A stretch of DNA of 43,629 bases, taken from the NCBI GenBank assembly GCA_002197525.1, contig NFUN01000061.1, positions 1 through 43,629 on the forward strand. Reading direction: 5' to 3'. This document shows positions 4 to 42,784 of the stretch, in pieces. The position numbers and the translations under genes are program-made. Each line of letters opens with the position of its first letter. Positions within the stretch are counted from its first letter, which is position 1. The notes under the pieces are model-generated. The model had not been told where the DNA came from and did no database searches. It was given only the letters and a program-made list of their open reading frames with translations. The DNA comes from Acidobacteria subdivision 13 bacterium RH2 MAG17b (GTDB taxonomy: Bacteria; Acidobacteriota; Terriglobia; UBA7540).

Positions 4-96
<93 letters not shown>

Positions 97-7192: not shown

Positions 7193-7488
7193 CGCCGCCT
7201 AGGGCAAGGAATCACGGCGCATCGGATGCTCGCGGTTGCCGCGCAAATAACGTCTTTTCCTTACTTCAACTTAACGCATGGGTCAGCGGTTCGGGGCGAT
7301 TTTTTCTCCGTTCAGTAGGGTTGGCATTGTCAGAAGGTAGCGGGCGGGCGTAGCGTTAATGAGACGCTTGAAAGATCCACTGGGCGTTTTTATGGGTAGC
7401 ATTCAAGCCGGAAAGGCGTGAGCCGCTCATAAATGCAGTGCATCCTTCGCCTCTCCGTGCACAGCTTTACGAAAGGTTTGGATTTGCA

Positions 7489-11921: not shown

Positions 11922-12132
11922 CGATGCCTCGGCAAGTCTTCGGTGGAGCCTCGCTAGTATGCTAACCTGGAGATCGGGATGATAGAGACTTTGGACCGTG
12001 ATGTGAGCGTCCGCAAGCAGTGAGGGTAATACACGGACCGCAGAGCTTCCGGCTCTGCCGAGTGCATCGCCAAGGGCTGAGTCGCGTGTTTTTGTCTTGT
12101 CATCCTAACGGTGAACTAGAAAGGAGCATTCC

Positions 12133-12837
12133 ATGAAATCATACCTAATGATCTTCTTTCTTTTTACCTTGCCGGCGGCAACGCTTGCAAAGGGAAACGA
12201 ATCGAAAGCGCAAGACCAAATCCAGAAGGCCACGAACGTCCTCAATGAAATCATGGCGGCGCCGGATAAGAGCATCCCACGAGATTTGCTCAACAAGGCG
12301 GTGTGCGTGGGCATCATCCCTTCCGAACTGCACTTCGCGTTTGGATTCGGCGGCAGTTACGGGCGCGGGATGATGGTGTGCCGGCGGCACGGCAACGGAC
12401 CATGGGGCGGACCTTCCATGTTCATCCTGGGCGGCGGGAATTTCGGCTTTCAGCTTGGCGGGCAGGCGACTGACGTGATCTTCCTGGTGATGAATGCTTC
12501 GGGAGCAAAGAAATTGCTGAGTTCGAGCGTGAAGCTGGGCGCGGACGCCTCAGCGGCCGCAGGGCCGGTGGGCCGCTCCGCAGCCGCCGCGACGGATGCG
12601 CAAATGCACGCGGAGATTCTCACCTATTCGCGCTCGCGCGGCCTTTTCGCCGGAATCTCGCTTGCCGGCTCCGTTCTGAAACAGGATAGCAAGAACAACC
12701 AGAGCCTTTACGGCCGCAAACTGACGCCCAAGCAAATCCTCATCGAGCAGATCGTAGGCGTTCCGCGCGCCGCCGCGCCACTTGACCGGGCTCTGAATAA
12801 GTACTCGCCGCACGGCGGGCAGGCGTTTTCTGCCTGA
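12133..12837 (+). CDS. Secreted SYLF (Ysc84-like) lipid-binding domain protein
   Basis: Protein of 234 residues. A signal peptide (KSYLMIFFLFTLPAATLA) precedes a region containing IPRDLLNKAVCVGIIP, then the glycine-rich SYLF pattern FAFGFGGSYGRGMM, WGGPSMFILGGGNFGFQLGGQATD, VKLGADASAAAGPVGR and YSRSRGLFAGISLAGS. SYLF domains bind phosphoinositides in eukaryotes; bacterial exported versions are thought to bind lipid but the role is not established. ATG 12133 has AGGAG upstream. It is the first of a tandem pair; the next copy starts 37 bp later. Confidence 0.9.
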   Translation: MKSYLMIFFLFTLPAATLAKGNESKAQDQIQKATNVLNEIMAAPDKSIPRDLLNKAVCVGIIPSELHFAFGFGGSYGRGMMVCRRHGNGPWGGPSMFILGGGNFGFQLGGQATDVIFLVMNASGAKKLLSSSVKLGADASAAAGPVGRSAAAATDAQMHAEILTYSRSRGLFAGISLAGSVLKQDSKNNQSLYGRKLTPKQILIEQIVGVPRAAAPLDRALNKYSPHGGQAFSA

Positions 12838-12874: not shown

Positions 12875-13630
12875 ATGAGAAAATGGCCGCTCATAATCAC
12901 GATGGCGATCGTGGCCGGGTTCGGCTTGGCCCGCCAGGCGCGCGCGCAGACGAAGATAGACGACAGGGTGCAGCGCGCTGCGCTCGTGATGAACGCCATC
13001 CTGCAGGCGCCGGACAACGGCATTCCGCAGAACCTTTTGGATCGCGCGGTGTGCGTGGGCGTAATTCCTTCGGCCAAGAAGCTGGCGTTCGGCCTTGGCG
13101 CCACGTATGGACGGGGTGCGCTGGCGTGCCGCGAAGGTGGGAACGGCGCGTGGGGCGCGCCTTCGATGATTCTGCTCAGCGGCGCGAGTTACGGCTTGCA
13201 ACTGGGCGGGCAAGCCACGGACGTCGTCTTTATCGTCATGAGCGTCAAAGCGGCGGAGAGGATCATGCAGAGCAACCTGAAGTTGGGCGTGGACGTTTCC
13301 GCCGCCGCCGGACCTGTAGGCCGCCACACGGAGGCAGCCACGAACGCGCACTTCAATGTCGGTATCTTGAGTTATTCACGTTCGCGAGGCTTGTTTGCAG
13401 GGTTGTCGCTGAGCGGAGCAGCGCTGAAAGAAGATGCAAAGGCCAACCGGCAGCTTTACAGGCGCAGCCTTGAACCCAAGGAAATCCTGCTCTCGGGAAA
13501 AGTTGCGCCGCCTGCCTCCGCAAAGCCGCTCGACGGAATTCTAGAGAAGTACTCTCCGAAAGGCGGAGAGCCAGCGACCAAGGTTCCGGCGCGCCAGGCG
13601 ACTTCCGCGCCGCAACACGGCCCGCGTTGA
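12875..13630 (+). CDS. Secreted SYLF domain protein, tandem paralogue
   Basis: Protein of 251 residues, colinear with the gene just upstream: signal peptide (LIITMAIVAGFGLARQARA), IPQNLLDRAVCVGVIP, LAFGLGATYGRGAL, WGAPSMILLSGASYGLQLGGQATD, VKLG-like LKLGVDVSAAAGPVGR and YSRSRGLFAGLSLSGA. It differs mainly in a longer C-terminal tail. AGGAGAGG precedes ATG 12875. The pair looks like an old tandem duplication, since identity is moderate and spread evenly. Both probably sit in the periplasm. Confidence 0.9.
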   Translation: MRKWPLIITMAIVAGFGLARQARAQTKIDDRVQRAALVMNAILQAPDNGIPQNLLDRAVCVGVIPSAKKLAFGLGATYGRGALACREGGNGAWGAPSMILLSGASYGLQLGGQATDVVFIVMSVKAAERIMQSNLKLGVDVSAAAGPVGRHTEAATNAHFNVGILSYSRSRGLFAGLSLSGAALKEDAKANRQLYRRSLEPKEILLSGKVAPPASAKPLDGILEKYSPKGGEPATKVPARQATSAPQHGPR

Positions 13631-15858: not shown

Positions 15859-17205
15859 ATGGCAACTCTGCGCAGGCCTTTGACGGAACCGAAGCCTACC
15901 TACGCTCACGGCAGGCAGATCGCCCAGCACATCTTCATGGCCACCATGGCGCTCGTGGACGTGCGGCGCGCCATGCTCAGCAAATTGAAATTTGAAGGCG
16001 GCGAACTCCGGGTGGGAGAGCTCGCAGTTCCGGTGGCGAAGCTTCCGCGCGTGGTGGCGGTCGGCAAGGCGGCGATGCGCATGTCTAGAGCGTTGGACGA
16101 AATTCTGTGCGGCCGGGTGGAGGCGGGAGTGGTGGTGGCTCCGGTCGAGCCGGGCAAGAAGCTGGAGGGATACCGGTATTTTCTGGGCGGGCATCCTTAC
16201 CCCACGCCAGGCAGCTTGGAAGGCGCGCAGGCGGCGCTCGAATTGGTTTCGGGACTTGCGCCGGACGACTTGGTGATCTTCTTGATTTCGGGCGGCGGCT
16301 CCGCTCTGTTCGAAAAGCCGCTGGACCCGGCAGTGACGCTCGCCGCGCTTGTGGAATTCAACCGCCTGCTCGTGACCGGCGACCTCCCGATCGAGCAGAT
16401 CAATGTGCTGCGCAAGCACATCTCGGCGGTGAAGGGCGGAAGGTTGGCGGCGGCCGCAAGCCCGGCGCGGCAACTCACCCTATACGTCTCGGATGTTCCT
16501 GAAGATTTCCCCTCCATGGTCGCTTCGGGCCCGACCATGCCGGATGAATCCACGTGCCAGCAGTGTTACGAGATCGCGGAGCGGAGCGGCCTGACGGCAA
16601 AACTTCCAGCGGCAATCCGGGAGCGAGTTGAAAAGCGCTCGCTCGAAGAGACTCCGAAGCCGGGCGACGAGCGCTTTGCGCGCTCAAGCTATTTCTGCCT
16701 GCTTTCGAACCGCGACGCGGTGGAAGCGGCGGTGAGGATAGCGGGAGACGCGGGCTTCCACGCGGAGATCGATTCTGGAGCGTGGGACGCAGATTACGAG
16801 CGGGTTGTGACGGGCTCCCTGGCGTCGCTTGACCAGTGCGTGCAGGCGCACCCAGGGCGGCCGGTGTGCCTTGTGCTCGGCGGCGAAGTCACCTGCCGCG
16901 TGACCGGGCACGGCATCGGCGGTCGCAATCTCTCCTTCGCGCTGCGCGCGGCGCAACTGATCGAAGGACTGCCGCGCGTGGCGCTGAGTGGCGCCACCGA
17001 CGGCCGCGACGGCAACAGTCCTTCGTGCGGCGCTGTGGCGGACGGGCACACTACTTCCCGCGCCCGCGCGCTGGGAATGGACGCCGCGCAGTTCCTGGCG
17101 GAGAGCGACGCTTACCACTTCTTTCGAACCCTCGGCGACACGATTGAAACGGGTTTTACGGATAACAATCTGCGCGACCTGCGCCTGCTCATGAGCTTTG
17201 AGTAG
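15859..17205 (+). CDS. Glycerate 2-kinase (class II, MOFRL/DUF4147)
   Basis: Protein of 448 residues with both class II glycerate kinase domains. The N-terminal DUF4147 part has AVGKAA, GHPYPTPGS and LISGGGSALFEKP. The C-terminal MOFRL part has LVLGGEVTC, GIGGRNLSFAL, SGATDGRDGNSPSCGA and DAYHFFRTLGDTIETGFTDNN. It phosphorylates D-glycerate to 2-phosphoglycerate using ATP, feeding glycolysis or gluconeogenesis. It is codirectional with the hydroxyacid reductase gene 96 bp upstream. About 16 bp after its stop begins the first 42-bp direct repeat bounding the STAND gene. Confidence 0.93.
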   Translation: MATLRRPLTEPKPTYAHGRQIAQHIFMATMALVDVRRAMLSKLKFEGGELRVGELAVPVAKLPRVVAVGKAAMRMSRALDEILCGRVEAGVVVAPVEPGKKLEGYRYFLGGHPYPTPGSLEGAQAALELVSGLAPDDLVIFLISGGGSALFEKPLDPAVTLAALVEFNRLLVTGDLPIEQINVLRKHISAVKGGRLAAAASPARQLTLYVSDVPEDFPSMVASGPTMPDESTCQQCYEIAERSGLTAKLPAAIRERVEKRSLEETPKPGDERFARSSYFCLLSNRDAVEAAVRIAGDAGFHAEIDSGAWDADYERVVTGSLASLDQCVQAHPGRPVCLVLGGEVTCRVTGHGIGGRNLSFALRAAQLIEGLPRVALSGATDGRDGNSPSCGAVADGHTTSRARALGMDAAQFLAESDAYHFFRTLGDTIETGFTDNNLRDLRLLMSFE

Positions 17206-17220
17206 GAACTGGCTGAGGCC

Positions 17221-17262
17221 CGCCAGCGGCTAGGCCGCTTACACCATCAGGGCGCAGCAAGC
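17221..17262 (+). repeat. 42-bp direct repeat, left copy
   Basis: Matches 19627-19668 at 40 of 42 positions in the same orientation (differences at the 8th and 22nd base). The two copies bracket the STAND NTPase gene, 2406 bp apart. The unit includes TAGGCCGCTTA and CCATCAGGGCGCAGCAAGC. Its position just after the glycerate kinase stop codon suggests an insertion or recombination boundary. Confidence 0.9.
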
Positions 17263-17345
17263 CTCGCCTGCCGACACACTGTAGGGCAGACGGCGCTTTC
17301 CCTCATTTTTGATCTGATGCAATTTCCCGGGTATGCCGAAATAGA

Positions 17346-19565
17346 GTGATTCTAAACATTCCAGCCCCGCTCGCTCTGACGGATCACGAAAAGAAGACCA
17401 TCCTTTCGTTCCTCGATGAGAAAGAGCACACGGACCTCATTGCGCAATGGCTTCAAGATTGGGGCATCAGCCCCTTCCGGGCAAAGCTCGTTGCCAAGCT
17501 CCTGATCCCCGCTCTTCAAAGGCTGCTTACGGCCACGGCGGGCCGTGCTGCTGAACGGCTGCACGAGCTGCTTCGCAAGCATTGGGACTTCTATGATGAT
17601 CTGGCCTTAAGGATTGGGAAGTGGCTATTCCTCATGATAGAAGACCGGCGCACACCCAACAAACTCATGGGTCCGTACATTGACCAGCCGCCTTCCGGCG
17701 TCGGCGCCGAAGACTGGAAGAAGATCAATGAGCAGACTAAGCAATGGCTGGTGCAGGTTGAGAAGCTCGACCTTATCGCCCTGGCGCTCGACGATCTTAA
17801 GGTCCAGGTTTCGCTCCGCATCGACCGGCCGCAACAACTCGCAAGAACGCCCCTCAGTCGCCTGCTCAGGCCCTATAACGCTTTTATTGACCTCATCGGA
17901 CGGGAGCCGGAAGTCAACTCCCTGGCTGCTTTCTGCGACCATCCGGCAGCGTTTCGATGGAAGGTATTGACCGGCGAGGGCGGGGTGGGGAAAACCCGGC
18001 TGGCGCTCGAACTGGCCAAGACACGTGAAGAAGCAGGGTGGAGCGCCGGCTTTCTTTCCGCTGAGTCTCTGGCGCATTGGGTTCGACATGAGGGCTTTCC
18101 GCGCTGGTCGCCCCTGGCAGAGACGCTGGTGGTGATCGATTATGCCGCCGCGAAGGCGGAGGATCTCAAGCCTTTGATCGAGCGGTGCGGCCAGTGGGCC
18201 GAAGACAATGAGGAATCCACGAGGCTGCGGCTTCTGTTGCTTGAGCGGCAGGCTGATCCCGACAACGGGTGGTTTCACGACCTGCAGAGCTCAGCAGAGG
18301 GCGCGCTCCGCGACCAGATCCGGGATAGCCTGGAGCCGGTGCAGGAGATTAGAGCGCCGGGACGCGACGATTCAGACGCGGTGATAGAGGCGATTCTGCA
18401 GGCTACGTTCAGGAGCTGGGCAAGGCTCCCCGGCGACCCGCCGCCCACGCTTTCGAAGCTTGACGATCAGGAATTGCGGGATCTCCGCCGAGGGACGCAG
18501 GGCCGGCCCTTGTTTTTGCAAATGGCAGCGCTCCGGGCGTGCGCCGAAAACAACACTTCCAAGCTCACCCAGTGGGGCCAAGAGGACTTGCTTCAGGATG
18601 CGGTGGGGCGCGAGCGTGATTATGTGAAGCGGCACTGCGATTCAAACTCCACCCGCGTCGTGCTCACGGAGCGTGGCATCGCCTTGCTCACGTTCACCGG
18701 GCCTTTGGCCAAAGGGACCTCCGCCTGGCTCAAGCTGCTTCAAGCGGACGCCCGCGCTTGTGGTTATCCCTATGCCCAGCCTGCCGAGATAAGCGATGCA
18801 ATTTCAGGCCTCTTGAGTGACACTGATGCCGCTGGCACACCCGTGCTCGTGCCGCTTACCCCCGATCTACTGGCTGAAGCTTTCGCGGTGACGGTGCTCG
18901 GCCGGCGCCCAGATTTGGCGGCGGGAGCCATGCAAGCGGTGCTCGATTGTTGTGGAGCACAAGCCTGGAACAACCTGCTCCGAGCCCTCGTTGATCTTTA
19001 TGGCCTGGGTGCGCTCGGTGTTATCGAGTCGTGGCTCATCGACTTGGCGCAACGGCAGCCCGTTGGAGCGCTGGCCTTGCTTGAAGCCCTGATACCCGAG
19101 CGTAGTGTAGCCCTGGCCCGCATCGCTGTCGTAGTGGGTGAAAGGCAGCTCCAGGGGCTGCCCACAACATCAGAAGCCGAGGCGGAGCAAGCCAGAATTT
19201 TTAACAACCTGGGCAATTGTTACAGCGAACTGGGGCGGCGGGAGGAAGCGCTGGGCGTGACGGAGCGAGCGGTGGCGATTCGGGAGCGGCTGGCGAAGCG
19301 GAATCCCGATGCCTTCGAGCCGGACCTGGCAGGCAGCCTCAACAACCTGGGCGTCCGTTACAGCGAGCTGGGGCGGCGGGAGGAAGCGCTGGGCGTGACG
19401 GAGCGAGCGGTGGCGATTCGGGAGCGGCTGGCGCAGCGGAATCCCGACGCCTTCGAGCCTGATCTGGCGATGAGCCTGAACAACCTGGGCAACCGTTACA
19501 GCGAGCTGGGGCGGCGGGAGGAAGGGCTGGGCGCGACGAAGCGGGCGGCCGGAGGTTCGCAATAG
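17346..19565 (+). CDS. STAND-type P-loop NTPase with C-terminal TPR repeats
   Basis: Protein of 739 residues. Residues 1-180 are a helical region of unknown family. Residues 185-600 form a STAND/NB-ARC-like NTPase: GREPEV linker, Walker A G210-EGGVGKT, Walker B LVVIDY at 261-266 and a sensor-like RLLLLERQ. From residue 620 come tetratricopeptide repeats in near-identical 46-codon units (19203-19340 and 19341-19478), with a third broken after about 21 codons and ending in a divergent tail before TAG. STAND proteins with TPRs are signal-sensing switches, and several act in antiphage defence; defence is an inference here. GTG 17346 has no good ribosome-binding site. It is flanked by 42-bp direct repeats and interrupts a glycerate gene cluster. 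Confidence 0.85.
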   Translation: MILNIPAPLALTDHEKKTILSFLDEKEHTDLIAQWLQDWGISPFRAKLVAKLLIPALQRLLTATAGRAAERLHELLRKHWDFYDDLALRIGKWLFLMIEDRRTPNKLMGPYIDQPPSGVGAEDWKKINEQTKQWLVQVEKLDLIALALDDLKVQVSLRIDRPQQLARTPLSRLLRPYNAFIDLIGREPEVNSLAAFCDHPAAFRWKVLTGEGGVGKTRLALELAKTREEAGWSAGFLSAESLAHWVRHEGFPRWSPLAETLVVIDYAAAKAEDLKPLIERCGQWAEDNEESTRLRLLLLERQADPDNGWFHDLQSSAEGALRDQIRDSLEPVQEIRAPGRDDSDAVIEAILQATFRSWARLPGDPPPTLSKLDDQELRDLRRGTQGRPLFLQMAALRACAENNTSKLTQWGQEDLLQDAVGRERDYVKRHCDSNSTRVVLTERGIALLTFTGPLAKGTSAWLKLLQADARACGYPYAQPAEISDAISGLLSDTDAAGTPVLVPLTPDLLAEAFAVTVLGRRPDLAAGAMQAVLDCCGAQAWNNLLRALVDLYGLGALGVIESWLIDLAQRQPVGALALLEALIPERSVALARIAVVVGERQLQGLPTTSEAEAEQARIFNNLGNCYSELGRREEALGVTERAVAIRERLAKRNPDAFEPDLAGSLNNLGVRYSELGRREEALGVTERAVAIRERLAQRNPDAFEPDLAMSLNNLGNRYSELGRREEGLGATKRAAGGSQ
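19203..19562 (+). repeat. Tandem 138-bp (46-codon) TPR-coding repeats
   Basis: Two full units and a partial third are nearly identical at DNA level, including synonymous positions (the GGCGGCGGGAGGAAG core is repeated three times). This implies recent amplification or homogenisation, or expansion and contraction by recombination. The third unit loses similarity after the GCGACGAAGCGG segment, where the protein ends. Confidence 0.88.
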
Positions 19566-19626
19566 GCAGCCAGGGGGTGTGCATGAGTCGGTGGTGGAGG
19601 ACCAGAACAAACCGGGTGCTGAGCGG

Positions 19627-19668
19627 CGCCAGCAGCTAGGCCGCTTATACCATCAGGGCGCAGCAAGC
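19627..19668 (+). repeat. 42-bp direct repeat, right copy
   Basis: Second copy of the repeat at 17221-17262 (40 of 42 identical, same strand). It lies 61 bp after the STAND stop codon and 78 bp before the start of the hydroxyacid dehydrogenase gene. No third copy was noticed in the window. Confidence 0.9.
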
Positions 19669-19746
19669 AGCGCCCCAGCGCCTTACGGTAACGAGGCTTA
19701 TACATAGCCTTTGACGCTGCGCAAAGTCTCGAACAGGAGGAGTGCC

Positions 19747-20658
19747 ATGCCGCAATCGATCGGATTTATTGGACTGGGAATTATGGGCCAGCCGATGGCC
19801 TTGAATTTGGTGAAGGCGGGATATCAGGTGACCGTGTGCAACCGCACGAAGAGCAAGGCTGAACCGCTCCAGCGGGCTGGCGCGCGTGTGGTCTCGACTC
19901 CCGCTGAGGCTGCTCGCGAGGCGGACGTCGTGATGACCATTGTCAGCGACACAGCGGCAATGGAGGAAGTGGCGCTCGGCAAAAACGGAGTGCTGGAGAC
20001 GTTGCGTTCCGGTTCCGTAGTGATTGATTCAAGCACTATCAGCCCGGTGGTAAGCCGCAAAATCGCCTGCCACGTCGCCGGCAAAGGCGCCCAGATGCTG
20101 GACGCTCCGGTGACTGGCAGCAAGCACGGCGCGGAAAAAGGCGAACTCACGTTCATGATCGGCGGCGAACGCCAGACGCTTGACCGCGTCCTGCCCATCC
20201 TGCAGGCGCTCGGCAAAAAGCACATCCACTGCGGCCCAAACGGCACAGGGCTGGCGGCCAAGGTGGCGCAGAACGCCATTCAGGCTACGATGGTTGAAGT
20301 TTTCTGCGAGGGTTTTGTGCTGGCGGCTAAGGCGGGCGTGAAGCCGGAGACGATGTTCGAGATCATCCAGTCGAGCATGGCGCGCGCCAGCTTGACGGAT
20401 TTCAAGGCGCCCTTCATTTTCAAAGGCGATTTCACGCCTTATTTCCCGCTGAAGCTGATGCACAAAGACCTGGAGCTGGCCATGGAAACGGCTTACTCGC
20501 AGAACGTGATCATGCCGGTGGCTGCGGCTGTGAAAGAGGTTTACGGAGCTGCTAAAGCCAAGGGGCGCGGCGATCAGGATTACGCCGCCGTCATCACCTT
20601 TCTCGAAGAGATTGCAGGCGTTCAAGTACGAGTGGGCGAGTCTGCCGCGAAAGCGTGA
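19747..20658 (+). CDS. β-hydroxyacid dehydrogenase, tartronate-semialdehyde-reductase-like
   Basis: Protein of 303 residues. It has the N-terminal Rossmann motif GFIGLGIMGQPMA, the substrate-binding DAPVTGSKHGAEKGELTFM and the catalytic lysine in TGLAAKVAQNAI. The family includes 3-hydroxyisobutyrate dehydrogenase, GarR/GlxR and succinic semialdehyde reductase-like enzymes. Next to glycerate kinase and a hydroxypyruvate reductase, reduction of tartronate semialdehyde to D-glycerate is the most economical role, but sequence alone does not separate the subfamilies. ATG 19747 has AGGAGG 6 nt upstream; the frame extends to TTG 19711 without family similarity. Confidence 0.9.
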   Translation: MPQSIGFIGLGIMGQPMALNLVKAGYQVTVCNRTKSKAEPLQRAGARVVSTPAEAAREADVVMTIVSDTAAMEEVALGKNGVLETLRSGSVVIDSSTISPVVSRKIACHVAGKGAQMLDAPVTGSKHGAEKGELTFMIGGERQTLDRVLPILQALGKKHIHCGPNGTGLAAKVAQNAIQATMVEVFCEGFVLAAKAGVKPETMFEIIQSSMARASLTDFKAPFIFKGDFTPYFPLKLMHKDLELAMETAYSQNVIMPVAAAVKEVYGAAKAKGRGDQDYAAVITFLEEIAGVQVRVGESAAKA

Positions 20659-22874: not shown

Positions 22875-22997
22875 ATTGAGGTTTACAAATTATAGTGACA
22901 ACATCCGCTGGTGCGGCGCTGTCCTCAGCGCCGAAAGACACCGGTGAGGACACCGGCGCTACAAAAAAGGCCGTCACTATAATTTGTAATTCTCAAT
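22875..22997 (+). repeat. 123-bp palindromic element with 25-bp inverted ends
   Basis: Ends pair over 25 bp with two mismatches: ATTGAG..TTACAAATTATAGTGAC on the left, the complement on the right. The interior carries GGTGCGGCGCTGTC, CAGCGCCG and GGACACCGGCGCTACAAA. That core is nearly the same as in the 125-bp elements, although the termini are different. Confidence 0.88.
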
Positions 22998-31939: not shown

Positions 31940-32064
31940 CTAATACCAACGCATTAAGTGGCGTGATGTCTGCTGGTGCGGCGATGTCGTCATCGCCGGT
32001 TTTTCGCCGGTGGGGACACCGGCGCTACAAAGTGGCGTCACATCAACAAATGCGTTGGTATTAG
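31940..32064 (-). repeat. 125-bp palindromic element, copy B (inverted)
   Basis: Inverted relative to copies A and C. Ends are CTAATACCAACGCATT and AATGCGTTGGTATTAG, with both termini changed together to CC/GG where A has CA/TG. It begins 1 bp after the epimerase stop. Read on the plus strand it contains an ATG-initiated open frame running into the MBL gene. Confidence 0.9.
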
Positions 32065-42431: not shown

Positions 42432-42784
42432 CAGGAGTTATACCTTACCTTGGGGCATCGCAACTTGCTGCCCGGCGGGCGAGGCGGCTCTGCCCACAAG
42501 AAGTCACAAGGATCAGCCGCCGCGCCGAAGCTGAAGCATAGTTCCTGAACTTGAGCCGAGTCAATCACGGCCTCGTGATATTCTGCCTTGCGTGCGGCAG
42601 CCGTCATCGAAGTCGCTTGAATCGTTCGAACAGGAGGTCATCCGCTGCACTCGCTGCCCGCGGCTGATACAAACGCATTGGTTGATGTGACGCCACTCTG
42701 GTGCGCCGGTGTCCCCACCGGCGAAAACCCGGCGATGAGGACATCGCCGCACCAGCAGACATCACGCCACTTAATGCGTTTGCA
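42432..42784. other. Intergenic region mostly occupied by repeat copy C
   Basis: Between the hexosaminidase start and the regulator stop codon there is no gene. About 230 bp show nothing recognisable and the remaining 120 bp are the 125-bp element. Confidence 0.6.

Follow-up and report, generated by a model that had tools for sequence, protein, structure and literature searches.

In the window, by which we mean the whole 43,629-nucleotide stretch of DNA analysed, a gene for a STAND-like NTPase with TPRs lies between two direct repeats, and the bounded segment separates a glycerate kinase (GK) gene from a tartronate-semialdehyde-reductase (TSR)-like gene. The question is whether this segment is a one-gene cassette that moves at its repeats, as an earlier note proposed, or a gene that was added here once. 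On balance, we favour the second answer: a 2.4-kb segment whose only gene is an orphan of the STAND-like NTPase/TPR type would have been inserted a single time, leaving 42–57 bp duplications at its ends.

The direct-repeat pair

The two 42-bp sequences described in the earlier note, at 17221–17262 and 19627–19668, are in the same orientation and identical at 40 of 42 positions by direct comparison, and both a repeat search and BLAST recover them. The repeat search extends the pair to 17212–17268 and 19618–19674 (both given on the + strand; spacing 2406), and the repeat is better described as 57 nt at 88% identity, with a 42-nt core in each copy. The pair is far beyond chance. When one flank is compared with the other without gaps, the best 42-mer match is 40, against a maximum of 26 among 30 shuffles; in addition, the pattern of a 32-base core has two matches in the window and none in 100 shuffles. 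Over the 57 nt, the two copies have 7 differences, a divergence of 12%.

With the upstream copy as BLAST query against its own whole genome, the second copy is found at E = 3.8e-14 and there is no further significant match; the genome (assembly about 90% complete) thus holds two copies only, both at this locus. The repeat is absent from all other genomes of the family and order that were searched. Neither the 19-base core in the genome collection nor a 20-base version in viral contigs has an exact match, in searches that may not include the records of the own genome.

A sample of stretches from the own genome, 472 kb in total, gives an estimate of the base rate of such pairs. The sample contains about a dozen further short direct-repeat pairs, 37–122 nt long and 0.6–7.4 kb apart, and direct repeats near genes are therefore common in this genome. 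Most of the sampled pairs belong to dispersed intergenic families with many copies, and some lie in paralogous coding sequence. This richness would favour a reading in which the two copies are members of a dispersed intergenic family that flank the gene by happenstance. However, the pair is strictly local, unlike most of those sampled, and the genome-wide count of two largely refutes that reading, which we consider very unlikely. For the same reason, the 42-mer is rejected as a dispersed repeat, which the earlier note had named as a finding that would refute its proposal.

The repeats do not appear to be a structured RNA either. Rfam gives no structured-RNA match at E ≤ 1, and the folding of the copies is not clearly better than that of shuffles (z = 0.18 and −1.51).

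The enclosed NTPase/TPR gene

Exactly one coding-like ORF lies between the repeat copies (17346–19565, + strand), and its codon-position G+C signal runs throughout. ORF and profile analysis thereby bear out the earlier description of a single NTPase/TPR gene flanked by GK and a TSR-like gene. The ORF begins with GTG, has no evident Shine-Dalgarno sequence, and encodes 739 residues with an intact P-loop (Walker A, GEGGVGKT) and a Walker-B-like motif (LVVIDY). In Pfam, AAA_16 scores 28.9 bits, slightly below its cut-off of 32.6, and nSTAND_NTPase5 is marginal (E = 0.01); NCBIfam gives sub-threshold matches only. TPR_10 and TPR_12 are above cut-off, indicating C-terminal superstructure-forming repeats, and the PDB relatives of this part are kinesin-light-chain TPRs. 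A single-sequence structure model has a mean pLDDT of 45 and is unusable outside the TPRs.

STAND NTPases with TPR sensor domains (Avs, or bacterial NLR-like, and other STAND proteins) have a P-loop NTPase core and, behind it, an array of helical repeats. The protein shares this order. It differs from them in its sub-cut-off AAA_16 score, its marginal nSTAND match, its short TPR array and its lack of a PADLOC match: PADLOC returns no family at E ≤ 0.1, so no known antiphage defence system is matched, and profile searches detect no known effector domain. We infer a sensor function from this architecture: the gene product would probably act on its own, as an ATPase sensor in the cytoplasm, in which the TPRs would bind a ligand, the P-loop domain would switch, and the uncharacterised N-terminal region would signal.

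The TPR part is encoded by three 138-nt DNA units (19178–19591, + strand), which are 100, 87, and 66% identical to the first unit. Similarity and frame are lost in the third unit near 19542, so that the array amounts to no more than about two and a half units. Past this frame shift, another frame is open through the downstream repeat to a stop after 19700. The open frame would fit an origin of the repeats by gene duplication, in which the downstream copy would once have encoded the C-terminus, now in a shifted frame, and the upstream copy would be what is left of the 3′ end of a second, tandem gene copy after most of it was deleted. Such an origin is improbable, since Pfam gives no match for either tail, even at E = 10, and nothing else of the gene has a duplicate upstream. 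When the tails are compared with the TPR units, with some of the reference units out of frame, 392 of 500 and 411 of 500 shuffles score as high. With no signal in Pfam or relative to shuffles, the repeats are rejected as a TPR-coding remnant.

The GK–TSR junction in relatives

The left neighbour of the segment is GK (15859–17205, + strand; DUF4147 and MOFRL), and the right neighbour is a TSR-like gene of the 3-hydroxyisobutyrate-dehydrogenase family (19747–20658, + strand; NAD_binding_2/NAD_binding_11). For the latter, the ATG at 19747, which follows AGGAGG, is a more likely start than the listed TTG at 19711; in most relatives, the alignment starts at about residue 13 of the longer ORF. Of the 39 family genomes, 33 have GK, and the GK–TSR gap was scored in the 27 relatives for which the retrieved stretch includes both genes. 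In 23 of these 27 the gap is 15–295 nt and the two metabolic genes are direct neighbours, as the earlier note had expected of the pair without the NTPase gene. The gaps of the three congeners (3 of 3) are 126, 32, and 104 nt. If the gene and one repeat copy were taken away, GK and TSR would lie 135 nt apart in the window, which is a normal gap.

The NTPase gene itself is present in 1 of 39 family genomes; a search of the other 38 does not find it. Its absence from the rest of the family, together with the short GK–TSR gaps, indicates that the gene was added in this lineage. Loss of the gene in all other family members would explain the same distribution less simply. These comparisons with family members give good support to an accessory insertion of the gene.

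The remaining four relatives (L018, L020, L024, and L025) have GK–TSR gaps of 583–935 nt with other inserts, none of them with flanking repeats, indicating that the junction tolerates insertion. By reading of its sequence, the L018 gap contains a short-chain-dehydrogenase-like gene.

As to the empty site proposed as a check on the cassette, the junction is empty in relatives, but no single copy of the 42-bp repeat is recognisable in their gaps, which cannot be aligned with the flanks in the window. As the gaps share no alignable sequence with these flanks, the missing single copy proves nothing.

Beyond the family, 396 genomes of the phylum contain only two weak relatives of the NTPase gene, at 31% identity. 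The TPR part of the distant relative L047 is also encoded by 138-nt DNA repeats, of which there are about 14 units; neither L047 nor L048, another distant relative, has flanking direct repeats. A scan of the genome collection with the NTPase protein confirms no relative. The viral collection holds no close relative, phages hold none, and plasmids give one short match only. Close viral, phage, or plasmid relatives of the gene are thus lacking, and the genome, viral, phage, and plasmid searches identify no candidate donor. The G+C content of the gene (0.620) is no different from that of its neighbours (0.596–0.649), so composition gives no sign of a recent foreign origin.

Insertion or movement at the repeats

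Islands that lie between imperfect direct repeats and lack a recombinase have been described before. The microcin H47 island of E. coli is 13 kb long, carries several genes between imperfect direct repeats of 144–148 bp, and has no recombinase inside; relatives have empty sites, and excision and integration have been shown experimentally, providing a precedent for excision at repeats with neither RecA nor an encoded recombinase (PMC3191183, PMC5426353). Like this island, the segment in the window is a chromosomal accessory segment with imperfect direct repeats, no internal recombinase, and empty junctions in relatives. Unlike the island, it is 2.4 kb long and has one gene and repeats of 42–57 bp, and any excision is hypothetical.

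The repeats could be attachment sites at which a recombinase acting in trans moves the segment as a circle. The direct orientation of the copies, the one gene exactly between them, the empty junctions of relatives, and the recombinase-less islands of such form (PMC3191183, PMC5426353) speak for this possibility, as do tyrosine recombinases encoded elsewhere in the own genome. No recombinase is detected inside the segment or in the neighbouring genes that were scanned. Against movement in trans, a second site or cassette with this repeat is found neither in the own genome and the family nor, by its 19-base core, in the genome collection, nor in the viral contigs; the copies are by now 12% apart over their 57 nt; attC boxes are absent; and the distant relatives of the gene have no such repeats. 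We therefore regard it as possible but doubtful. The narrower proposal of a minimal recombinase-less cassette, in which host enzymes recombine 42–57 bp attachment sites around an orphan sensor NTPase, has in our view only a slim chance of being correct.

The segment resembles an integron gene cassette in having a single gene and, at each end, a short direct repeat of about 57 nt. It differs in that neither repeat has GTTRRRY or RYYYAAC core sites nearby, that a hairpin in copy 1 is disrupted in copy 2, and that no TIGR02249 (IntI) match exceeds the curated cut-off in the own genome (assembly about 90% complete). An integron attC is rejected for lack of the R′/R″ core sites and of an integron integrase above cut-off. 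A tRNA-adjacent att site is likewise rejected, as the two tRNAs of the window (4–96 and 2398–2486) are both far from the repeats.

Of the earlier proposal of a one-gene cassette, the accessory insertion into a normally continuous GK–TSR pair is supported. Movement by recombination at the repeats is not supported, given that the searches yield no second instance of the repeat and no close relative of the gene, that the distant relatives have no such repeats, that the segment and the scanned neighbours show no recombinase, and that attC core sites are absent. A new element with these boundaries finds no backing either, as neither gene nor repeat recurs in the collections searched.

Under the single insertion that we favour, the 2.4-kb segment would have entered the short GK–TSR intergenic region in one event that left, or used, the 42–57 bp duplication at both ends. 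The route may have been illegitimate repair or integration, a single crossover of a circle, or a recombinase in trans, which look alike at the sequence level. The 7 differences in 57 positions and the short, frame-shifted TPR array suggest that the event is old and argue against a recent or active one. Weighing against insertion with duplication, the repeat could have arisen otherwise, and no one-copy empty site is found. The repeats, putative att sites at most, might allow rare host-mediated deletion; the excision of the microcin H47 island makes rare loss at such repeats plausible.

This would then be a case in which one lineage gained an orphan STAND-like gene at an intergenic site that tolerates insertion. 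Gains of this kind are ordinary in bacterial accessory genomes and lend no support to a new mobile element. If the repeats were true attachment sites, the segment would be one of the smallest cassettes with a sensor gene and could serve to test mobility without a recombinase.

Repeats of other kinds are also seen. A palindromic intergenic family has copies in the window at 2734–2791, 22902–22996, 31969–32031, and 42699–42759, and in many sampled contigs. On L079, another strictly local direct-repeat pair (57 nt, 89%; 7337–7393 and 12063–12119, 4.7 kb apart) has one copy overlapping the 3′ end of an ORF. The adjacent paralogous genes at 12133–12837 and 12875–13630 of the window are about 65% identical in DNA over 448 nt, an apparent tandem duplication.
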